Assembly (NCBI GenBank): GCA_905339165.1
Contig: CAJPFH010000050.1
Coordinates: 1-64,000 of the forward strand
Direction: 5' to 3'
DNA length: 64,000 bases
Source: Flavobacteriales bacterium
GTDB taxonomy: Bacteria > Bacteroidota > Bacteroidia > Flavobacteriales_E > Vicingaceae
Below, in pieces: positions 11-9,814 of the stretch. The first letter of the stretch is position 1; each line of letters begins with the position of its first letter. The notes under the pieces were generated by a model that saw only the letters and a program-made list of their open reading frames with translations, was not told the DNA's origin and searched no databases. The translations under genes and the position numbers were made by a program.

Positions 11-146
11 ACCGCTAACACGGGTTTTGCGTCAGGCGGGGTGACGTGCAAACTTGGAGCTTTGTGCTTCTATTCAAGTTCAGTGCTGGTTGACAGTTTT
101 GTGCTCCGAAACCCACCCGAACGCAAAGCCCGAAAACGTTAGCGGT
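11..146 (+). repeat. attC-like palindromic repeat R1
   Basis: An imperfect palindrome of 136 bp. The outer 9-bp arms are perfect: ACCGCTAAC at 11-19 against GTTAGCGGT at 138-146. Inside them a second stem pairs CGGGTTTTGCGT with ACGCAAAGCCCG (one G-T type mismatch). The right arm carries an extra AAAAC, so the fold has a one-sided bulge. About 70 nt of variable centre holds the words TTTGTGCTTC and GTGCTCCGAA. Five more copies of almost the same length follow between genes up to 7470. The design resembles integron attC sites; calling it a recombination site is an inference. Confidence 0.75.
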
Positions 147-206
147 CATGCTATGACGACAGTGCGTAACCCGACCGACAGTGCATAAAACAAACATTTT
201 TGACAG

Positions 207-1541
207 ATGAACCATCACTTAAATATTTTTCGCTTCTTCAACGAAAGCACAGAAAAGGAGTTTATAGAAAACAACTTGAGCAGAGCATTTTCTCTTTGCT
301 TGACAAACAACAGTTTCTTTCTTAACGAGTATATTCAAGACATCGTAACGCCAGAGGACTATCAATATTTATTCAGTTCAATTAGCAGCGACACCAAGTA
401 TTTTATTGACCTTCAAATTGACACTGCAACTATTGAAAAGGAAAGCTACAAAACTGTTTATGCAGTCGCTATGACTTCAGACCGCAGCTTAAACATGGAC
501 GACTTTTTTACACAGCCCGAATATTCAGACAAGAAAAATATCACTGACATTCTCATAACAATCAAAGACATTGCGATTCTCATAGAAGTGAAGCGGACAG
601 GCGAAGATTGCAAAGCACAACTTTTCAATCAAGTTCTTCCTTTCATCAAAGAGAAGGATAAGTTTGAAGTGAAAGCCAAAAGATATTCGTGGCAAGAGGT
701 TGTCTTAATATTGGAGAAAGTTAAGCATGTTCAACAGTTGGTTTCTCAAAGCTCTGTTTTCATAAACGACTTTTTGGAACTTAGTGAAATAAAATATCCC
801 GAATGGTTTGAACCAAAATCATTCAATGTAATTCCGTTCACAGCACAAAGTAGAACACCGAACAACACACAACTAATGAAAAGGATGAGGCAAGCACTTG
901 CTGGTGTTTCCCAAATTGCTGGTGACGACTATCAACTATTGCCTTACAATGATAGGTTAGGAATTTCTGTTCCTTTCGGCTGGGCAAGTGAGGTTATTCC
1001 AGAGTTTGACAGCTATGATGATGCGATTAAAGATTATGTTGTGTTTTACATCTGGCCAGGCAATACAAAACAACAAGGGTATTATATCTTCAACAAGCCG
1101 CTTGACTGGACATCAAAGAGAACTCTTTCAGTTGACGGAACAGAATATGAGTTAGAAATTGTTTACAATGTAAAACTTTGCCACTTCAACAGATATGTGG
1201 CAGGCATCAATTTTTACAACAGTGACGTATCCAAACCCCTTCACACAGCAGACAACTTCTACAATCAATCGGGCAAATGGAACAGTGACAGTTGGAAGGA
1301 TTTTGAGCAGTTATTAGACGAACATTTCAAACCTGAATTTAATTGGCGGGACAAGTGCAAATGGGACGACAATTTCACGAACACAGACAGAAGTTATTTT
1401 ACAATGTCATTAGGTTTTGAGGTTTGTGTTTACATACCGTTTGCTAACTTCAAGTCCATTGACAAAACAGAAACAGACATCACGAAAGTTTCGGACTTGA
1501 TAAACAGAATTGTAATCGCATTTAAAGACCTTATCGCTTAA
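207..1541 (+). CDS. PD-(D/E)XK nuclease-like cassette protein
   Basis: A 444-aa soluble protein with no signal peptide. Residues 110-135 read like a PD-(D/E)XK nuclease core: Asp114 in NITDILIT, then Glu127 and Lys129 in LIEVKRT, twelve residues apart and followed by a predicted helix. The C-terminal ~250 residues are rich in Trp and Tyr and I do not recognise them. The gene sits alone between repeats R1 and R2, so it is a cassette cargo, and a role in restriction or phage defence is plausible but only inferred. The ATG at 207 is the first in frame after R1. Homology to a named family could not be checked. Confidence 0.6.
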   Translation: MNHHLNIFRFFNESTEKEFIENNLSRAFSLCLTNNSFFLNEYIQDIVTPEDYQYLFSSISSDTKYFIDLQIDTATIEKESYKTVYAVAMTSDRSLNMDDFFTQPEYSDKKNITDILITIKDIAILIEVKRTGEDCKAQLFNQVLPFIKEKDKFEVKAKRYSWQEVVLILEKVKHVQQLVSQSSVFINDFLELSEIKYPEWFEPKSFNVIPFTAQSRTPNNTQLMKRMRQALAGVSQIAGDDYQLLPYNDRLGISVPFGWASEVIPEFDSYDDAIKDYVVFYIWPGNTKQQGYYIFNKPLDWTSKRTLSVDGTEYELEIVYNVKLCHFNRYVAGINFYNSDVSKPLHTADNFYNQSGKWNSDSWKDFEQLLDEHFKPEFNWRDKCKWDDNFTNTDRSYFTMSLGFEVCVYIPFANFKSIDKTETDITKVSDLINRIVIAFKDLIA

Positions 1542-1578
1542 TATGGAACGACACATCTTCGGACAGACAGAAGCACGA

Positions 1579-1706
1579 ACCGCTAACAAGGGGTTTGCGA
1601 TAGCGGGGGTTCCGTGCTTCGCAGACACATTTGTGCAAGGTGGAAGTTCAGTTCTCCGAACAAAGTTTAGTGCTAAAACTCCCCGCCATCGCAAACCCCC
1701 GAAACG
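1579..1706 (+). repeat. attC-like repeat R2, right outer arm replaced
   Basis: The left arm ACCGCTAAC (1579-1587) is identical to that of R1. The inner stem is strong: GGGGTTTGCGATAGCGGGG pairs with the CCCCGCCATCGCAAACCCC segment at 1681-1699 with one mismatch. Where the right outer arm GTTAGCGGT should start, at 1706, the sequence keeps the G and then changes to ATAGAACGC. R2 is therefore joined to a different structured element exactly at the G where an integron-like crossover would fall. Confidence 0.65.
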
Positions 1707-1790
1707 ATAGAACGCAACCCTTACTCCGGAAAAGCAGACCCTCCCACCGGTCGGGTTCTCTTTTCCACCAACGCTTCGTTGCGTTCTATC
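1706..1790. repeat. Inverted repeat with 13-bp arms
   Basis: GATAGAACGCAAC (1706-1718) is the exact reverse complement of GTTGCGTTCTATC (1778-1790). Inside, GGAAAAG pairs with CTTTTCC, and ACCC with GGGT around CACCGGT. It follows R2 without a gap and runs directly into the next structured element. Its sequence does not match the R-type repeats, so it is a second element class. No protein-coding signal was seen: the frames open through it on both strands are low-complexity shadows of the palindromes. Confidence 0.6.
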
Positions 1791-1890
1791 GGTGGGGCTT
1801 GGATGTCCGTATATCCGCAACCCTGCGGGCTTCGTCTATCAATGGCTTGTCGCCATTGAAACGGACCGCCAAGCCCCACCGTTATGCGTC
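1791..1890. repeat. Branched, cloverleaf-like inverted repeat
   Basis: The outer 12-bp arms GGTGGGGCTTGG (1791-1802) and CCAAGCCCCACC (1869-1880) are perfectly complementary. Within them GTCCGT (1805-1810) pairs with ACGGAC (1861-1866), and two small hairpins follow: CCGCA/TGCGG (1815-1828) and CAATGGC/GCCATTG (1840-1858). The result is a multi-branched fold. It ends in GTTATGCGTC (1881-1890), the GTTA-type right end seen in R-repeats. Whether it acts as DNA (recombination site) or as RNA is unknown. Confidence 0.6.
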
Positions 1891-1911
1891 ATTTTATAAG
1901 ACACCGCAAAT

Positions 1912-2502
1912 ATGGAGAATAGGCCGAATTTAGACAGAAATATATCACTTGCCGACTTCAATGATTTCTATTGGTTGAAAGAGGAACTTGTAGTCTTTTG
2001 TAAACGAGTTGGTATTTCAACATCGGGTGGAAAAATCGAAATAACAGACAGAATTAGACATTATATTCTGACAGGTAAAACTGATAGAATTGAAGCAGCA
2101 AAGTCAAAAGGCAAATCAAAATTTGATTGGAGCAAAGAGAAATTAACTCTTAAAACTGAAATTACTGACAGCTATAAAAACGGAGAGAATGTTAGAAGAT
2201 TTTTTATACAGGAGATTGGTTCTCACTTTGCTTTTAATGTCATATTTATGAAATGGATAAAGGAAAATATTGGTAAGACACTTGGCGATGCAATCATTGA
2301 ATGGAACAGAATTAACGAATTAAAAAAGGACAAAGATTATGTCAGCGAAATTGACCCTCAATTTGAGTATAATCGATATATGCGAGCATTTTTGGTAGAC
2401 AATCCTGAACTATCAAGCAAAGACGCAATGAGACATTGGAAATTGAAACGTTCACAGAGAGGAACAAATGAATATGAACGGGCTGATTTAGAAATGAAAT
2501 AG
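1912..2502 (+). CDS. SAP domain / DUF6434-like protein
   Basis: A 196-aa protein. Residues ~12-50 look like a SAP DNA-binding helix-extension-helix (ADFNDFYWLKEELVVFCKRVG followed by GGKIEITDRIRHYI). Residues ~62-130 (FDWSKEKLTL, RRFFIQEIGSHFAF, WIKENIGKTLGDAI) match what I know as the DUF6434 region usually found with SAP. The C-terminal ~60 residues are charged, with an RHWKLKRSQRG-like tail. It lies 21 bp after the branched repeat and shares a segment with the next gene. Nucleic-acid binding is likely from the SAP fold; its role is unknown. Confidence 0.65.
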   Translation: MENRPNLDRNISLADFNDFYWLKEELVVFCKRVGISTSGGKIEITDRIRHYILTGKTDRIEAAKSKGKSKFDWSKEKLTLKTEITDSYKNGENVRRFFIQEIGSHFAFNVIFMKWIKENIGKTLGDAIIEWNRINELKKDKDYVSEIDPQFEYNRYMRAFLVDNPELSSKDAMRHWKLKRSQRGTNEYERADLEMK

Positions 2503-2506
2503 AAAA

Positions 2507-2528
2507 ACGAACGTACAACAGCATTTTG
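2507..2528 (+). repeat. Truncated left arm of an R-type repeat
   Basis: The 22 bp just after the SAP/DUF6434 stop codon match the left end of R3 (3379-3400) at 17 of 22 positions: both share ACGA, CG, AACAGC and TTTG in register. The rest of a 136-bp repeat is missing, and the next ATG follows 20 bp later. This looks like the remnant of a repeat that once separated the two genes. Confidence 0.45.
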
Positions 2529-2548
2529 AGAAAGGAGAGCACAAAAGA

Positions 2549-3376
2549 ATGAGAAAACTTAAGACAATAATTCTATTTTTAGTTTTTACTGTATTTACGG
2601 TGGAAACTTTTGCCTGTTCTATTTTTTATTACATAGACAGCAAAACGGGTAAAATCTATTTCGTAAATAATGAAGATTATTGGTATGATGTAAAACCTTA
2701 CATTCAAATAATTCCGGGTTCAAAAAATGAATTTGGAAGGATTTGGTATGGTTGGAATAATTTTGGACAGGGCGGAGTGAATGAAAAAGGTTTGGTCATA
2801 GACGGTGCGGTTACACCTGAACAGAAATTACCAAAAGGTTATAGCGACCCTAAGAAGGTCAATATAACAGACAAAATATTATCGGAATGCGAATCTGTAC
2901 AACAAGCAATTGATTTGTTGGAGACCAAGAAAATAGCCCTAAAGAATGCACATATCTTCATAGGGGACCGTAACGGAAGGGCTGTATTAGTAGAATGGGT
3001 AAAAGGAAATAAGAACATTGTTGAAATTAAAAACAATAGACTGGTGGCAACAAATTTTAATATTTCAGACACAAGCCAAAATGTAATGACTTGTTGGAGA
3101 TATTCAATAATTCAAAAGGGTTTAGACGAATTAGACGCAAGAGATTCGAAAGATACAATTTACTTAAAAGACGTAGGTAATGTAATTGGAAAGGCAGTTC
3201 AGATACCAAGTGCGGACTCATCAGGCAAAGTTGGTGGTACTCTTTACACTACATTTATAGACTTGACAGAAATGAAATTCATTTTAGTTTATAAACTTGA
3301 CAACTCAAAAATTCAGAAATTGGATATAATAACAGAACTGCATAAAGGAAATAAAAGGAAAATTAAACTTGAATAA
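2549..3376 (+). CDS. Exported Ntn-hydrolase (choloylglycine hydrolase / AAT-like)
   Basis: A 275-aa protein with an N-terminal hydrophobic signal peptide (residues ~3-18) ending TFA before Cys23. In linear amide C-N hydrolases (bile salt hydrolase, acyl-CoA:6-APA acyltransferase-like, peptidase C45/C59 families) the mature N-terminal Cys is the nucleophile, and Cys23 in this position followed by FVNNEDY (NxD-like) fits that. GQGGVNEKGLVIDG is also typical of the fold. The enzyme should cleave a linear amide outside the cytoplasm; the substrate is unknown. It lies between the truncated arm at 2507 and R3, so it probably forms a cassette segment with the SAP/DUF6434 gene. Confidence 0.65.
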   Translation: MRKLKTIILFLVFTVFTVETFACSIFYYIDSKTGKIYFVNNEDYWYDVKPYIQIIPGSKNEFGRIWYGWNNFGQGGVNEKGLVIDGAVTPEQKLPKGYSDPKKVNITDKILSECESVQQAIDLLETKKIALKNAHIFIGDRNGRAVLVEWVKGNKNIVEIKNNRLVATNFNISDTSQNVMTCWRYSIIQKGLDELDARDSKDTIYLKDVGNVIGKAVQIPSADSSGKVGGTLYTTFIDLTEMKFILVYKLDNSKIQKLDIITELHKGNKRKIKLE

Positions 3377-3382
3377 AAACGA

Positions 3383-3518
3383 CCGCATAACAGCCGTTTG
3401 CCGCAATGGGGGCTGAAGTGGTTAAATCAAGTGCAGTACTTCTATCAACATTTGTGCTTGGTTGACAGTGAAGTGATCCTAAATCCCCCACTGCGGCAAG
3501 CGGCAAACCGTTAGTGGC
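3383..3518 (+). repeat. attC-like palindromic repeat R3
   Basis: A 136-bp copy. The inner stem CCGTTTGCCGC pairs with GCGGCAAACC-type sequence near 3494-3509, and GGGGG pairs with CCCCC. The outer arms do not match each other well: CCGCATAAC (3383-3391) against GTTAGTGGC (3510-3518), 5 of 9 complementary. The left arm pairs far better with the right end of the branched repeat at 1881 (GTTATGCGT, 8 of 9). The centre contains CATTTGTGCTTGGTTGACAG, also present in R6. Confidence 0.75.
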
Positions 3519-3542
3519 AAGTGTAATGACAGAATTTATCCT

Positions 3543-4034
3543 ATGACTAAACAAAAACCATTTAGCAAACTAAAAAAAGTTATTGACAGTTTATTTGACG
3601 AAAAACTAAAAATGGAGTTTTGTTGTAATTCATATCCAATTCGTGGACAATGGGGACATCATAATTCTATTCCGAGATACTATGTTAAAATTGGCAAGGA
3701 AATTATTTGGGACTTTCCAAAGGACTTTGATATGAAAGAGTTGCCTTTTTACTATTGGGCAGAAAATAATTACATTAATGAACTTGTTCGTGAGTATATA
3801 GACACGCCAATTGAAAAACTATTAAATAAAAAATTCAAAAATGATAAGAACGGCTTTATTATGCAATATTTGTATTCTAATCATCAAGACATCTTTGAAA
3901 TTGAATATAAGTTAACAGAATTATTTAAAGCAGCCGACAGACGAATAGGGAAAGATAACCTTTTAAAATGGGCAAAAAAGGTTAATAATCCCAAAGTTGA
4001 TAGAATTTTAGCAATAAGATTTAATAACAAATAA
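3543..4034 (+). CDS. Small uncharacterised protein, possibly SF0329-like
   Basis: A 163-aa soluble protein starting 24 bp after R3. The N-terminal pattern SKLKKVIDSLF, followed by a Trp/His/Gly-rich stretch (RGQWGHHN) and then VKIGKEIIWDFP, recalls the SF0329 family, but I cannot confirm this. The C-terminal ~60 residues look helical (LTELFKAADRRIGKDNLLKWAKK). There is no signal peptide or membrane segment. Its position between R3 and R4 makes it a cassette cargo. Function unknown. Confidence 0.5.
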   Translation: MTKQKPFSKLKKVIDSLFDEKLKMEFCCNSYPIRGQWGHHNSIPRYYVKIGKEIIWDFPKDFDMKELPFYYWAENNYINELVREYIDTPIEKLLNKKFKNDKNGFIMQYLYSNHQDIFEIEYKLTELFKAADRRIGKDNLLKWAKKVNNPKVDRILAIRFNNK

Positions 4035-4089
4035 CGTAACATCAGATAAAAAAATAGTAGAAGTAGTTAAATTAGAAACTTGAAATTAA

Positions 4090-4350
4090 CACCACTTTAT
4101 CAATGAGACAGACCTTGACACCTTGCAAGACAAAGCGAATGTAATAGATTCATTTTTCGTATTTGTCCAAAACAAGCAGAAAGCGGAAGCACAGGAATTA
4201 ATCAAAAGTCCACGCATTTGCAGGCACATTTGCTTTTTTTCCAACGCTTGGACCAACTCAAAAAAAATCAAAAGAGCCTACAAGCCAACCCACCACGACA
4301 GACATTGTGAAAGGACAAACGACAACCGAAGAAGAACAACGAAGGCATAA
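4090..4350 (+). pseudogene. Decayed gene fragment before R4
   Basis: The 308 bp between the 163-aa gene and R4 hold no intact gene. The frame open from 4090 lacks an ATG but reads protein-like at first (HFINETDLDTLQDKAN, then VQNKQKAEAQELI), after which the quality collapses into low-complexity residues and the frame runs into R4. This looks like the C-terminal end of a larger lost gene, perhaps from an enzyme of the restriction/helicase type, but the parent cannot be identified. The tail (4223-4297) also holds the word pair GGCACATTTG and CAAGCCAAC seen again at 7602 and 25981. Confidence 0.35.
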
Positions 4351-4478
4351 CACGGGTTTGGCAAAAGTGGCGGTTCAGTGCTTCGTATGACAGTTTTTGC
4401 TAAATTTGAACTTTGGTGCTTCGTATGAAATTTAGTGGTAAAAACGCCACCTTCGCCAAGCCCGAAACCGTTATGCCT
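4343..4478 (+). repeat. attC-like palindromic repeat R4
   Basis: A 136-bp copy with perfect 9-bp outer arms AGGCATAAC (4343-4351) and GTTATGCCT (4470-4478). The inner stems are CGGGTTTGGC against GCCAAGCCCG and AGTGGCG against CGCCACC, with the same extra AAACC in the right arm as other copies. The centre carries a direct repeat of GTGCTTCGTATGA. Confidence 0.75.
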
Positions 4479-4546
4479 AATGCTCAAATAAAGTTGAACT
4501 CACCTAAAATATCTACAATAAAAATTGATAATATGAAAATTTAACA

Positions 4547-5920
4547 ATGTTTGTAAGAACTAAAAATTATTTTATTGGCCATCGCCTCATTGCAACAGAG
4601 GATGTGTTTGAAAAAGCAAAAATTAATTTGGTATTTAACTTTACCCTATTTATGACTTTGCTTGCTATACCGTTTGTAATTCAATTGTACATAAACGGAT
4701 TTTGGTATCATTTTTCAATTAATATTTTTGAAATCCTTTCTTTAATTTTCATTTACATTTTATTTAAGACAAATATTTCACTTAAATACATAGGAATTTC
4801 GTTTGTTATTATGGACTCCATTATGTCAGCCGGAAGCCTAGTCTTTCAAAATGGATATTTTGAAATACAAGCTGGGCTCTGGAGTATGCTACTGATTATT
4901 TATACATTTTTTGTTCTTGGAAAAAAATGGGGCTTATCTATCGTATTGTTTATTACTTTCCTTTATTTGGGTTGTGTCCCATTTGAAAATGGCACATCAA
5001 TGTTAAATTTTGGAATACCTGAAAATCAAATATTACCCACTGCATCCGCATTTATAGTATTTCCGTTTTTACTTAACATTTACATTATTACAGTTTTTAT
5101 AAACACCAATATTGCCGCTGAAAACTTGATGCGTAAACAAAAACAAAAATTGGAAACACAGAAAAATGAAATAGTCTCGTCAATTACCTACGCAAGGCGA
5201 ATACAACAAGCGAAGTTACCGAAGAAAGAAGATGTTTATTCATATTTCCCAAACAGCTTCATTCTTTTCAAACCAAAAGATATTGTTAGTGGAGATTTTT
5301 ATTTCTTTCAAAAGACTGAAGAATCTATTATTATCGCTTCTGCCGACTGTACAGGCCATGGAGTCCCTGGAGCACTTATAAGTATAATTGGCTCTGAAAA
5401 ATTAGAAGACGCTGTTTCACAAAAAAGAGACCTTTCTGATATTTTGAAAATGCTTAACAGGGGAATTAAAACGTCCCTCAAACAATCAGACAGCGATGAA
5501 TCCACGAGAGATGGTATGGACATTGCAATTTGCTCAATAGACAGAGAAAATCGAATTGTAAAATACGCTGGTGCAAACAGACCACTTTGGGTTATTCGCA
5601 ACGGACAGAACATAGTTGAAGAAACAAAAGCAACTAAAAAGGCAATTGGTGGCCTCACCGAGGACGGCCAGCACTTCGATACACACAAAATAACCTTAGA
5701 GCAAGGCGACACATTTTACATTTTCACGGATGGATACGCAGATCAGTTTAACGGACAAAATGGAAAAAAAATAATGACAAAAAAATTAAAAGAAATTTTG
5801 CTCGATATTCAACACAAACCAATGCGAGACCAAGAGAAATATTTGGACAATTTTCTTGAAACTTGGAAAGCAGGGGAAGAACAAATTGACGACATCCTAA
5901 TTATTGGAATTCGACTATGA
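4547..5920 (+). CDS. Membrane-anchored SpoIIE-family PP2C phosphatase
   Basis: A 457-aa protein. Residues ~28-195 hold about six hydrophobic helices. A charged linker (RKQKQKLETQKNEI) leads into a SpoIIE/PP2C domain from ~215 to the end, with metal-binding motifs VSGDFYFF (Asp250), ADCTGHGVPGALIS, DGMDIAIC and FTDGYADQ. Proteins of this build dephosphorylate anti-sigma antagonists or other Ser/Thr-phosphoproteins in response to membrane signals. It lies alone between R4 and R5, a large cargo for a cassette. No partner kinase or STAS protein is nearby. Its input and target are unknown. Confidence 0.85.
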   Translation: MFVRTKNYFIGHRLIATEDVFEKAKINLVFNFTLFMTLLAIPFVIQLYINGFWYHFSINIFEILSLIFIYILFKTNISLKYIGISFVIMDSIMSAGSLVFQNGYFEIQAGLWSMLLIIYTFFVLGKKWGLSIVLFITFLYLGCVPFENGTSMLNFGIPENQILPTASAFIVFPFLLNIYIITVFINTNIAAENLMRKQKQKLETQKNEIVSSITYARRIQQAKLPKKEDVYSYFPNSFILFKPKDIVSGDFYFFQKTEESIIIASADCTGHGVPGALISIIGSEKLEDAVSQKRDLSDILKMLNRGIKTSLKQSDSDESTRDGMDIAICSIDRENRIVKYAGANRPLWVIRNGQNIVEETKATKKAIGGLTEDGQHFDTHKITLEQGDTFYIFTDGYADQFNGQNGKKIMTKKLKEILLDIQHKPMRDQEKYLDNFLETWKAGEEQIDDILIIGIRL

Positions 5921-5942
5921 CAGCAACAAATGCAACAGCACA

Positions 5943-6077
5943 AGGCATAACAGCACATTTGCAATAGGCGGGGCTTCGTGCTCCGTAGACAGTTTAGCGG
6001 TAGTCGAAAGTTTTGTACTCCGCATCAACATTGGTGGTAAAAATCACGCCTTCGCAAAGCGGCAAACCGTTACAAGC
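5943..6077 (+). repeat. attC-like palindromic repeat R5
   Basis: A 135-bp copy. The left arm AGGCATAAC (5943-5951) and right end GTTACAAGC (6069-6077) pair at only 4 of 9 positions, but the left arm pairs perfectly with the right end of the previous repeat R4. The inner stem around TTTGC/GCAAA and GGCGGGG/CACGCC is weaker than in R1 and R4. The centre contains GTGCTCCGTAGAC and GTACTCCGCATCAAC. Confidence 0.7.
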
Positions 6078-6131
6078 AACCCTGCCGGACGACACAGCGG
6101 ACGATGAACTAAAGAGAAACAGAAAAAAATT

Positions 6132-7316
6132 TTGAAATATATCACACGGACAGTTTGGATTTTATCAGTTGTAAGTTTACTAACCGATACAGCAAGCGAA
6201 ATGCTGTATCCAATTATGCCCATTTACTTAAAGACAATTGGTTTTTCAATTTTGCTTATCGGAATACTTGAAGGCGTTGCAGAAGCAACGGCTGGACTTA
6301 GCAAGGGTTATTTCGGTAAACTCTCCGACACATCAGGGAGACGTGTTCCATTTGTCCAAATTGGTTATGCTTTCAGCACCATTTCAAAGCCGATAATGGC
6401 AATTTTTACTTTTCCGCTTTGGGTATTTTTTGCACGGACAATTGACCGTTTTGGCAAAGGGATTCGAACAGGTGCAAGGGACGCAATTCTTTCGGACGAA
6501 GCAACACCACAGACAAAAGGAAAAGTTTTTGGCTTCCATCGTTCAATGGACACATTAGGTGCTGTAATTGGACCGTCATTGGCATTGCTCTATTTATATT
6601 ACTATCCGCAAGACTACAAAACGCTTTTTTTTGTTGCATTCATTCCTGGACTTTTTGCGGTTCTTTCATCATTCTACCTGAAAGACAAAAAAGCAACCGA
6701 GCATAATCCAAAAGTAAAAACACTATTTTTTTCGTTTCTAAATTATTGGAAAGTAAGCCCAACAGAATACAGAAAATTAGTAATCGGACTTTTACTATTT
6801 ACGCTGTTTAACAGTTCTGACATTTTTTTATTGCTTCAAGCAAAGCAATCGGGGCTTGACGATACAATGGTTATCGGAGTTTACATTTTTTACAATCTTA
6901 TTTATGCTTTGTTTGCTTTCCCAATTGGCGTTCTTGCCGACAATTTTGGACTGAAAACAATTTTTATAATTGGACTTGTATTGTTTGCGATAGTCTATTT
7001 TGGTATGGCTTTAAACACAAACCTTTATATCTTCTTCGGACTGTTTTTTCTTTACGGTATTTATGCCTCAGCGACAGAAGGAATTTCAAAAGCGTGGATT
7101 TCAAACATCACTGACAAAAAGGACACGGCAACTGCAATCGGGACGTTTTCAGGACTGCAAAGCATTTGCACTATGTTGGCAAGTTCATTGACAGGACTTA
7201 TTTGGTTTCGGTTTGGTGCGACAACTGCATTTATAACAACAGCGACAGTAACTTTAATTGTAATAACTTACTTCTTGACAATTCCTAAACCGACAAATGA
7301 CATTATCAAATCATAA
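6132..7316 (+). CDS. MFS transporter (TTG start)
   Basis: A 394-aa integral membrane protein with about twelve hydrophobic helices and typical major facilitator features: TDTASEMLYPIMPIYL in helix 1, GRRVPF and RTIDRFGKGIRTGARD in the cytoplasmic loops between helices 2-3 and 4-5. This subgroup is often labelled simply MFS permease; the substrate is unknown. The start is taken as TTG at 6132 because the only nearby in-frame ATG upstream is followed at once by a stop, and the next Met would remove most of helix 1. It is the cargo between R5 and R6. Confidence 0.8.
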   Translation: MKYITRTVWILSVVSLLTDTASEMLYPIMPIYLKTIGFSILLIGILEGVAEATAGLSKGYFGKLSDTSGRRVPFVQIGYAFSTISKPIMAIFTFPLWVFFARTIDRFGKGIRTGARDAILSDEATPQTKGKVFGFHRSMDTLGAVIGPSLALLYLYYYPQDYKTLFFVAFIPGLFAVLSSFYLKDKKATEHNPKVKTLFFSFLNYWKVSPTEYRKLVIGLLLFTLFNSSDIFLLLQAKQSGLDDTMVIGVYIFYNLIYALFAFPIGVLADNFGLKTIFIIGLVLFAIVYFGMALNTNLYIFFGLFFLYGIYASATEGISKAWISNITDKKDTATAIGTFSGLQSICTMLASSLTGLIWFRFGATTAFITTATVTLIVITYFLTIPKPTNDIIKS

Positions 7317-7334
7317 AGACAAAAGAAGGGCAGT

Positions 7335-7470
7335 GTCTATAACAGCACCTTGCCGAAAGTGGGGCTGACTTGGTAAAATGAACATTGGAACTTTAAATAA
7401 ACATTTGTGCTTGGTTGACAGTTAAGTGCTCCGAAATCTCCACTTAGCCAAACTGCAAAACGTTATAACC
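7335..7470 (+). repeat. attC-like palindromic repeat R6
   Basis: A 136-bp copy with outer arms GTCTATAAC (7335-7343) and GTTATAACC (7462-7470), 7 of 9 complementary. Inner stems: ACCTTGCC against GCCAAACTG, and AAGTGGGG against CTCCACTT. The centre shares CATTTGTGCTTGGTTGACAG with R3. It is the last well-formed copy; the segment after it has no cassette-like single gene. Confidence 0.7.
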
Positions 7471-7607
7471 AATAGTTAAAAACGGAACACATATCAAAAC
7501 GGCAGACAGTAGCACATCAAAACTTCGGTGTATAAAATTATTTGTGTATCGGCTGACAACACACCGCAAATTTTAAAAAATAATTTTAGTCTGCCAGCAT
7601 TGGCACA

Positions 7608-7787: not shown

Positions 7788-8201
7788 ATGAACGGAAAAA
7801 ATAATATTGCAATAGGCTTCCTGACAATGGGTCTTTTTATGGCTTACGGGTTTCTTTTAATTTATCTTCGCGACTTTGCCCCAGGTAAAGAAGAATGGAT
7901 AAACTCTTATAGTATAGGCAAACATTTTGAAAGCAGATTAGCTCATGTTCATGGAAACTTATTTGCGTTTTTAAATATTGTTGTTGGTTATTTGTTGTTG
8001 CAATTTAGTGATAGACTCAAAAATGTGAAAACTATTTCTTATTTAGCATTGACAGGATTGTTAATGCCAATGGGTATTTTAGCAGAAATTTATTTGGGAG
8101 CACCTCCTGTTTTTGTGTTAATTGGTGCAATTGCAATGACAGTTTCAGTAATTTGGTTGGGATTTTCGTTTATTATTTTAAAACTAAACAATGACAAATA
8201 A
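7788..8201 (+). CDS. Four-helix membrane protein of unknown function
   Basis: A 137-aa protein with four hydrophobic segments (IAIGFLTMGLFMAYGFLLIYL; HGNLFAFLNIVVGYLLL; ISYLALTGLLMPMGILAEIYL; PPVFVLIGAIAMTVSVIWLG). The short His motif AHVHG at the start of helix 2 is the only polar feature of note. I chose the ATG at 7788: an in-frame TTG at 7749 overlaps the -7 box and cannot be transcribed from this promoter. The end overlaps the TetR start by 11 bp, implying coupled translation. Family not recognised. Confidence 0.65.
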   Translation: MNGKNNIAIGFLTMGLFMAYGFLLIYLRDFAPGKEEWINSYSIGKHFESRLAHVHGNLFAFLNIVVGYLLLQFSDRLKNVKTISYLALTGLLMPMGILAEIYLGAPPVFVLIGAIAMTVSVIWLGFSFIILKLNNDK

Positions 8202-8784
8202 AGATTTTACCGAAAGGCAAATTGAAATAATGGAAGCTGCTACGCTTCGCATTGATAAATTCGGAATACAAGAATTAACGATAAAAAACTTAGCCTCCGA
8301 CCTGAGCTTATCTGAAGCTGCATTGTATCGCCATTTTAAAAGTAAAAATGAAATTTTGTTGGGGTTAATTACCTTTTTTATGATTGAAATGAAAGAAAGG
8401 GTTAGTGGCATATTAACACAAAATGATAAAAAATCGGGAGAAATATTACGACAAATTTTTTCGTCACAGCTCAATAATTTTGTTGCAAATCCGTCCATTT
8501 GTAGTGTAATTTTTTCAGAAGGTATTTTTCAATTCAATAAAGAGTTGAGTACAAAACTAAATGCAATGATGGATATGATGCACAATAACATTAGCTCGGT
8601 TGTAGCCAAAGGGCAAAGCGAAGGCGTTTTTAGTACTTTACTTAGTGCTGATGCAACCACTACAATAATTATGGGAAGCATGCGAATGGTTGTGTTAAAA
8701 TGGAAATTATCGGGCAACAAATCTAATTTAATTAAAGATGGTACTTCAGTTTTAAACGGATTGCTAAAAATGATTGAAAAATAA
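8191..8784 (+). CDS. TetR-family transcriptional regulator
   Basis: A 197-aa regulator. The N-terminal helix-turn-helix (residues ~10-50) has the family signature ELTIKNLASDLSLSEAALYRHFKSKNEIL; the rest is the helical ligand-binding and dimer domain. It overlaps the preceding membrane-protein gene by 11 bp and the next by one base. From the shared operators at 7751 and 19914, it probably represses its own operon and the TolC-RND efflux operon 11 kb downstream. The inducing ligand is unknown. Family assignment is firm; the regulon is inferred. Confidence 0.9.
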   Translation: MTNKDFTERQIEIMEAATLRIDKFGIQELTIKNLASDLSLSEAALYRHFKSKNEILLGLITFFMIEMKERVSGILTQNDKKSGEILRQIFSSQLNNFVANPSICSVIFSEGIFQFNKELSTKLNAMMDMMHNNISSVVAKGQSEGVFSTLLSADATTTIIMGSMRMVVLKWKLSGNKSNLIKDGTSVLNGLLKMIEK

Positions 8785-9419
8785 TGAAAGTATTATCAGT
8801 AAACATTAGCAAACCACAAACCATTACTGTTAATGGTAAAGAAGAACAAACCGGTTATTTTAAAAATCCAGTTAAAAGAATTTATTTAGGTAAAACCGAT
8901 GTAAAAGATGATAGTGTAACTGACAGAGAGCATCATGGAGGCGAAGATAAAGCATGTTATCTCTATGGATTTAATCATTACGAGTTTTGGAAAAGTAAAT
9001 ACCCACAAACAACTTTCAATTTTGGAATGTTTGGCGAAAACATTACTGTTGAATACATCGATGAATCAACATTAAGAATTGGCGATACATTTGAAATTGG
9101 TAAAGCAATAATTCAAATAACACAGCCTCGCCAACCATGCTATAAAATGGGAATTAAATTTAACAATCAAAAAGTGGTGAATGAGTTTAGGTTATCCAAT
9201 TTTCCAGGTATTTATGTAAGAGTTTTAAAAGAAGGAGAAGTTAAAACTAACGATGAATTAAAACTTATTGAAAGAGACAACACTTCGCCAACGGTTTTAG
9301 AAGTGTATCGTTTAATTTATGAATCAAAACCCAATCAGGAAAAATTATATCAACTTGTTGAAAATAAATTTATTGCAGACAGTTTAAAAAAATATATTGT
9401 AAAAAAATATTCATTATGA
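8784..9419 (+). CDS. MOSC domain protein (YiiM-like)
   Basis: A 211-aa protein of the MOSC superfamily, which binds molybdenum cofactor and takes part in sulfur or N-hydroxylated base detoxification. The N-terminal KTDVKDDSVTDREHHGGEDKA is the YiiM hallmark (residues ~37-57), as is GMFGENITVE, and the Cys in PRQPCYKM (about residue 117) is the expected catalytic or ligand Cys. The length is close to E. coli YiiM, slightly short at the C-terminus. It is translationally coupled to TetR (one-base overlap). Confidence 0.88.
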   Translation: MKVLSVNISKPQTITVNGKEEQTGYFKNPVKRIYLGKTDVKDDSVTDREHHGGEDKACYLYGFNHYEFWKSKYPQTTFNFGMFGENITVEYIDESTLRIGDTFEIGKAIIQITQPRQPCYKMGIKFNNQKVVNEFRLSNFPGIYVRVLKEGEVKTNDELKLIERDNTSPTVLEVYRLIYESKPNQEKLYQLVENKFIADSLKKYIVKKYSL

Positions 9420-9814
9420 AGGCTATTAAAATAATATCATCAATACTCCTTACTTTTTTTGGAGGTCTATCGGTTTTTATGACACTGTCGATTATTTTAG
9501 ATTGGTTTGATATTCGCGAAAAAGAAGGCAATTATGTATTGTTTATTGTTTATGCTAATTTGGTTTGTGGAATTATTTATTTGATATCGGCATGGTTAAT
9601 TTACAAAAAAATTGATTGGGCAAAAACACTTCTTGCTCTTTCAATTGCAATTTTATTAGTAGCTTTTGTTGCACTTCAGGTTTATATTAAAAATGAAGGT
9701 ATTTATGAAGAAAAAACCGTAAAAGCTATGATTTTTAGAATTGCTTTTACCATTATATTAACTCTTACAGCATTTTATTTATCATATAAAAATCAAAAAA
9801 ATAATAATTACTAA
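9416..9814 (+). CDS. Small four-helix membrane protein
   Basis: A 132-aa protein with four hydrophobic helices at roughly residues 5-25, 41-62, 70-90 and 105-125, and short polar loops (DWFDIREKEGN, YKKIDWAK). It overlaps the MOSC gene by 4 bp (ATGA). No family was recognised. Its place in the TetR-controlled run suggests a membrane accessory role, but there is no direct evidence. Confidence 0.65.
   Translation: MKAIKIISSILLTFFGGLSVFMTLSIILDWFDIREKEGNYVLFIVYANLVCGIIYLISAWLIYKKIDWAKTLLALSIAILLVAFVALQVYIKNEGIYEEKTVKAMIFRIAFTIILTLTAFYLSYKNQKNNNY

Follow-up and report, generated by a model that had tools for sequence, protein, structure and literature searches.

Positions 11 to 7471 of a 64,000-nucleotide stretch from a Flavobacteriales bacterium (contig CAJPFH010000050.1, positions 1 to 64,000; hereafter the window) hold a row of palindromes and genes that forms the distal end of a very large chromosomal array of integron-type cassettes. 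The array very probably belongs to a cassette system served by a tyrosine recombinase without the patch of the integron integrases (IntI), a lineage parallel to the IntI integrons. A first-pass annotation of the window had suggested that this could be an integron-like cassette system, belonging to the Bacteroidota and using a distinct type of site, and the arrays, the recombinase linkage and the cassette turnover described below support that proposal. Cassette boundaries, crossover, attI position, turnover and recombinase association were all established by sequence comparison.

Cassette signature and exchange junctions

In integrons, crossover takes place at the right end of a site, between G and TT, and the bases past the G belong to the next cassette. 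Because the start of that cassette pairs with the left arm of its own site, the right end of site n should be complementary to the left end of site n+1, a prediction that is unique to integron cassettes among repeat types. This is the pattern we see: the right end of a site, G/TTANNNN (the slash marks the crossover), is complementary to the left end of the next site and not to its own. In the host genome (G000, a draft of 136 contigs in which the window is C50:1-64000), 39 of 47 adjacent pairs matched over at least 8 nt, against a mean of 2.6 and a maximum of 10 in 5000 shuffles, and at positions 5-9 there were 212 matches in 235, versus 94 +/- 8. The signature recurred in 35 of 42 pairs from other genomes (shuffled mean 2.45, maximum 8).

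The ends of contigs bear the marks of exchange. At six of them one identical site is followed by sequences that diverge directly after CGTT, and at five the same cassette start is preceded by five different sites. In G000 the branching cassette, about 480 bp long and lacking any open reading frame (ORF) of 80 aa, is found in several copies or in several arrangements (C82:5093-5582; tips of C54, C81, C96, C128, C8, C7, C110 and C18). The assembly branch points lie exactly at G/TT, and we take these tips as direct evidence of cassette exchange.

The window contains six imperfect palindromes of about 136 bp, which fold into long hairpins, together with their cassettes:

11-147, +, attC-like site R1; crossover between G138 and T139
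139-1706, +, cassette A; ORF 207-1541 (444 aa), terminal site R2
1579-1706, +, attC-like site R2; intact through crossover G1706, then ATAGAAC in place of TTANNNN
1707-1881, +, gene-less minimal cassette of about 175 bp with a GAT/ATC core and a hairpin site of its own (stem 1787-1810/1861-1884)
1882-3510, +, cassette B; SAP/DUF6434 protein 1912-2502, C45-like N-terminal nucleophile (Ntn) hydrolase 2549-3376, terminal site R3
3383-3519, +, attC-like site R3; crossover between 3510 and 3511
3511-4470, +, cassette C; SF0329-family protein 3543-4034, terminal site R4
4343-4479, +, attC-like site R4; crossover between 4470 and 4471
4471-6069, +, cassette D; SpoIIE-type phosphatase 4547-5920, terminal site R5
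5943-6078, +, attC-like site R5; crossover between 6069 and 6070
6070-7462, +, cassette E; major facilitator superfamily (MFS) transporter 6132-7316, terminal site R6
7335-7471, +, attC-like site R6, the last recognisable in the window; crossover between 7462 and 7463

The first-pass annotation had described six palindromes of 135-136 bp running in one direction with their genes, and all six are indeed present on the plus strand. It had also called R2 truncated at its right end. The truncation is only apparent: the site is complete as far as the crossover at G1706, and it looks cut short because the gene-less cassette, which starts ATAGAAC, follows at that G. We accordingly rejected R2 as a decayed site in favour of an insertion of the gene-less cassette at its G. 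Nor do the repeats strictly alternate with single genes, as had been thought, since 1882-3510 holds two genes and 1707-1881 none.

Three of the window's cassettes show the signature directly. The start of cassette A, TTAGCGG, is complementary to the left end of R2 (CCGCTAAC), that of cassette B, TTATGCG, to the left end of R3 (CGCATAAC), and that of cassette D, TTATGCC, to the left end of R5 (GGCATAAC). The ends of cassette C are mismatched (GTTAGTGG versus GGCATAAC), and cassette C is probably two cassettes fused by deletion; the ends of cassette E are likewise mismatched, and it too is a probable fusion. No family match was obtained for the 444-aa protein of cassette A. The contig begins just 5' of R1, within that site's upstream cassette. 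R1 also has a copy on contig C110, where another cassette takes over from GTTA onward. Ordinary chromosomal genes lie 3' of the array, from 7749.

The right flank of the array (7793-9500) resembles G043:C6:78895-80602, from another genus, at 81%, and no listed site lies on that contig. As C6 of G043 carries no listed site and the match in G005 is short, the right flank was unusable as proof of a fixed array position.

The site family in the host genome

We built a covariance model from R1-R6 and scanned G000 with it, as the first-pass annotation had advised, and found same-strand arrays and no random scatter. At E <= 0.001 there were 61 sites. The scores of R1-R6 themselves are circular, the model having been built on them, and it is the roughly 55 other copies that lend independent support; the E-values are rough, coming from a short calibration. 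Same-strand series lie on C50, C54, C81, C82, C96, C11, C110, C121, C128, C18, C34 and C7. Many of these contigs start or stop within a site, as expected where an assembler meets a repeated site. A few lone copies were also seen, on C12 and C64.

Like attC, the sites appear to be conserved by structure more than by sequence. Among 58 distinct copies, each of the 16 base pairs that make up the two inner stems showed compensatory changes, and stem covariation was 0.516, versus 0.139 after shuffling. The inner stems were 88% paired, against 28-42% in slid controls, which are the fair comparison here because the site alignment had been fitted to structure. Within one site the AAC/GTT core is invariant, but roughly 40% of the pairs in the outer arms are disrupted, as the cassette signature predicts. 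The core had been said to differ from the classical RYYYAAC/GTTRRRY, and so it does: only AAC and GTT are invariant, and the next bases vary with the cassette. On the bottom strand the T.G wobble seen in the L stem of 35 of 58 copies becomes a C.A mismatch; the sites also have an asymmetric internal loop.

The recombinase and its attI-like site

The statement that no integrase is present holds for the window; the same genome, however, encodes a fitting tyrosine recombinase on contig C18. Four tyrosine recombinase genes were found in G000, namely two Xer-like genes on C14 and C28, a weak match on C12, and C18:9038-10186(-), which of the four is most like the integron integrases. No patch-bearing IntI was found in G000.

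Contig C18 also carries two sites, at the far end from the recombinase. An exact copy of the left arm of the first (ACACACAAC) is found, as GTTGTGTGT, 112 nt beyond the stop codon of the recombinase. The first cassette would then be the 7.7-kb segment between the two, with its genes for an ATP-binding cassette (ABC) exporter and for peptide maturation. The attI-like acceptor (...ATAAACAAG/TT) lies about 112 nt after the recombinase stop and is co-oriented with the array. Three genomes, G000, G005 and G045, share the recombinase and the attI-like site up to AAACAAG/TT and differ from there. G005 belongs to the same genus and is syntenic with G000, at 91% identity over 11 kb of flank; G045 belongs to another genus and is identical to G000 over 1714 bp. 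The predicted attI thus appears to adjoin the recombinase at the point where the first cassette inserts, as in integrons. More widely, in 21 of 22 loci the left end of the first site has its counterpart in an attI-like point downstream of the recombinase; the match extends over 9-10 nt in 20 loci, and in 16 loci that point lies 70-155 nt past the end of the recombinase match.

The identical stretch in G045 (C88:9980-11693) comprises the recombinase, tRNA genes and attI, and the sequence upstream differs from that of G000. Such identity across genera could be due to recent transfer, misbinning or a chimera.

The array-associated recombinases lack the IntI-specific patch, the feature by which an IntI is recognised. 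From the K motif to HxLRHS they measure 57-60 residues in nearly all rows (63 in one), with 58-59 for the C18 recombinase, compared with 64-66 in Xer proteins and 100 both in IntI1 and in an IntI from Calditrichia. The TIGR02249 model scored below its cut-off on the C18 recombinase and left positions 182-233 unmatched; with the patch absent, an ordinary IntI was ruled out. The catalytic residues R, K, H, R, H and Y are conserved in the family, and an N-terminal domain of about 100 residues is present. In a tree of 55 rows the array-associated recombinases grouped together (support 70/86), apart from the patch-bearing IntI (100/100) and the Xer proteins (100/100). The C14 and C28 Xer-like proteins grouped together outside the array-associated clade, and on this gene grouping the C18 enzyme does not look like a member of a XerC/XerD pair acting on dif, for which no dif search was made. 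A structural model of the Algoriphagus enzyme (predicted template modelling score, pTM, 0.51, so that we use the overall fold alone) had the integron integrase IntI4 (2a3v) as its best fold match in PDB. The Calditrichia IntI, for its part, has weak site-like matches upstream on the opposite strand, the classical layout.

Distribution and cassette turnover

Sites were found in 30 of 46 genomes of the host family. On all eight fetched family contigs with sites downstream of the recombinase, those sites are co-oriented; the G045 contig ends about 600 bp past attI, and its two sites lie upstream. A recombinase-alignment scan returned 80 named database loci with a homologue, 27 of which carry sites, and in these 27 loci 68 of 71 sites are downstream of the recombinase and co-oriented with it. 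They include loci from Algoriphagus, Cyclobacterium, Flavobacterium, Arundinibacter, Zunongwangia, Winogradskyella, Algibacter, Mesonia, Lutibacter, Aquiflexum and Pontibacter, as well as a Chryseobacterium plasmid.

Chaining arm matches without a model revealed 14 successive cassettes with sites of about 77 bp in Rufibacter. This test was noisy at most loci (reversed controls reached 6), and we used it only where the result was clearly above controls. Three loci from Rufibacter and Pontibacter (L174, L243 and L244) have recombinases of the same clade, sites of about 77 bp and arrays of small genes, and are partly plasmid-borne. In Saccharibacillus kuerlensis, a member of the Bacillota, a patch-less homologue (L190, from 11160) is followed downstream by three cassettes, recognised by the same chaining, with 106-bp sites and matching arms. 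It may be, then, that the system extends beyond the Bacteroidota. Site length varies across these loci while the layout is constant.

The first-pass annotation had asked whether related genomes show repeat turnover, and they do, at a conserved chromosomal position. Between flanks that are 92-94% identical, G000 has two sites in about 2.5 kb (C34) versus an array of about 36 kb in G005, and the cassettes common to the two genomes have different neighbours. One stretch of 3.6 kb (L056:8075-11656 and L226:1-3582) is 99.9% identical against a background of about 91% and ends exactly at the right end of a site, which indicates recent cassette transfer.

Cargo and gene-less cassettes

In 45 cassette intervals of G000, 83 of 96 ORFs are co-directional with the array. 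Cassettes reach 10 kb and include whole operons. Matches among the cargo include type I, II and IIG restriction-modification systems, parts of resistance-nodulation-division (RND) and HlyD efflux systems, and metal ATPases, and restriction-modification genes are frequent. Several large cassettes (5-11 kb; C81, C121, C82 and C54 of G000, C18 and C19 of G005) have their first 250 bp and last 220 bp or so in common and differ in their interiors. The gene-less cassette of about 175 bp, with its GAT/ATC core instead of GTT/AAC, follows different sites in two species, with copies on C82, at the start of C114 and in G005 (L048:5583-5756, the start of L054, L227:4345-4514, and L222 near 4028-5340).

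blaVEB and tet(X3)

On five plasmids with a blaVEB cassette, the sole match to our covariance model is the end site of that cassette (E 2e-6 to 2e-5; L246:2444-2582 in NZ_CP031802.1, also L247, L249, L250 and L251). Three of these plasmids have ordinary cassette rows with aadB, and two have a shortened start near qacEdelta1; the sites of the neighbouring cassettes (aadB, arr-2, dfrA14 and others) on those plasmids were not matched by the model. On other plasmids blaVEB-3 starts at TTAGGGAG/TTAGCGG, 79 nt past a truncated recombinase of the patch-less clade (5'-truncated, L245:5133-5855 in NZ_CP083462.1), with an attI-like junction between the two. The Aeromonas veronii blaVEB-3 region gave no match to the covariance model on its own, because an insertion sequence (IS) cuts the site off. 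We also considered as a site the 135-bp Re element flanking blaVEB, as cited in PMC3668210, and rejected it; it lies upstream of a truncated blaVEB start and has no model match.

In pHH1107 (FJ012881.1; L253:3001-5431), tpnF, a recombinase of the patch-less clade, lies upstream of tet(X3), and the left two thirds of a site follow that gene (E 7.5e-5). The arms mismatch the attI-side start, which makes this case weaker than that of blaVEB. It appears that blaVEB spread to pathogens from the patch-less system, and tet(X3) probably did likewise.

Discussion

We suggest that the unit of this system is a gene or operon together with one hairpin-forming, attC-like site of about 136 bp. Exchange would occur between G and TT at the right end of the site, with the TTANNNN half moving with the downstream cassette; in the excised circle, that half would pair with the cassette's own left arm (NNNNTAAC). 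The likely recombinase is C18:9038-10186(-), encoded at the other end of the array, with its attI-like acceptor 3' of the gene. We infer that this enzyme catalyses the recombination, that the folded single strand is its substrate, and that a promoter near attI drives expression of the first cassettes.

Several observations weigh against this interpretation. Eight of the 47 adjacent pairs lack the match, some of them within the window. No clear preference for bottom-strand folding was found; the bottom strand is the more stable one in 34 of 59 copies, a weak bias at most. The patch is needed for IntI activity according to Messier and Roy (2001), as cited in PMC9668308, and here it is missing. 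Finally, the G000 draft is fragmented, and for the window it is by inference that array and recombinase are joined.

An alternative is that the arrays are clusters of attC sites lacking an associated integrase (CALIN) and are mobilised in trans, either by the XerC/XerD of the host or by a conventional IntI. Xer enzymes are encoded in G000, and the blaVEB site sits beside IntI1 in class 1 integrons, so IntI1 apparently used it. We nevertheless think this improbable, since G000 has no patch-bearing IntI and since, in line with the first-pass suggestion to look for a recombinase at one end of the arrays, a patch-less recombinase with an attI-like point is present at their 5' end in genome after genome; contigs, moreover, often break directly past that recombinase, where a repetitive array would begin.

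Two explanations that dispense with recombination of cassettes seem to us still far less credible, and about equally so. Many similar palindromic copies in one genome, a few of them isolated (C12, C64), would suit a dispersed repeat of the repetitive extragenic palindrome or miniature inverted-repeat transposable element (REP/MITE) kind that sits between genes by chance, but such a repeat would not keep to one strand per array, match its right arm to the left arm of the next copy, or have junctions that coincide at G/TT in different genomes, and a MITE would predict complementarity of its own arms and target duplications. Strong hairpins with compensatory changes could also be RNA elements (terminators, attenuators or riboswitches) kept for a function in the transcript. 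In an Rfam scan of the window, however, only a tRNA reached threshold, and a role in RNA leaves the complementarity across sites, the exact junctions and the recombinase linkage unexplained.

We further consider it likely that a second, patch-less integron lineage is spread across the Bacteroidota and reaches at least one genome of the Bacillota. This lineage would have a separate recombinase clade, an attI placed behind the recombinase gene, and site classes of about 136, 106 and 77 bp. It would be overlooked by present tools, which require the patch, and it would be the environmental source of the blaVEB of class 1 integrons and the tet(X3) of insertion sequence common region (ISCR) elements. 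We do not claim that no earlier account exists; our search covered open papers, and a prior description is possible. Integrons are generally considered uncommon among Bacteroidota, and IntI is taken to define them. A patch-less recombinase serving at least 60 cassettes makes both the role of the patch and a possible repeated origin of cassette systems testable. With an entire restriction-modification system or efflux pump carried on one cassette, the arrays serve as a reservoir of defence and resistance genes in bacteria of environmental, fish and soil origin, and the site of blaVEB, together with the surroundings of blaVEB-3 and tet(X3), suggests a concrete route from that reservoir to clinical plasmids.

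Parts of the system have been met before under other names. The ISCR2-tpnF-tet(X3) and blaVEB regions are called ISCR2-borne or class 1-integron-borne in the literature, and the terms integron and attC are absent from the tet(X) paper; we place tpnF and the truncated recombinase inside the array-associated clade, with attI-like junctions and sites adjoining the genes. Smyshlyaev et al. 2021 (PMC8138268) define an integron-like subgroup of simple tyrosine recombinases in which the catalytic-domain insertion is not fully conserved and in which members without it are grouped; the account of the subgroup consulted there describes no arrays, attI or site type and leaves the extra N-terminal domain unnamed. 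The integron of Salinibacter ruber M1 (previously only an In0, PMC9024848) is also from the Bacteroidetes group, but it has a conventional IntI and was detected by a patch-requiring tool.

The closest likeness is to the IntI integrons, including the Vibrio superintegron, which share tandem co-oriented cassettes with a terminal hairpin site, crossover at G/TT, a half-site that goes with the downstream cassette, a tyrosine recombinase together with attI at one end, cassettes numbering in the tens, and gene-less cassettes. Unlike IntI, the recombinase described here is patch-less and has an N-terminal extension, and whereas the integrase of those integrons is divergent, ours is co-oriented with the array, with attI past its 3' end. 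The sites keep only AAC/GTT of the R consensus RYYYAAC/GTTRRRY, their internal loop is asymmetric (1 nt versus 5 nt), and the cassettes, at up to 10 kb, carry whole operons.

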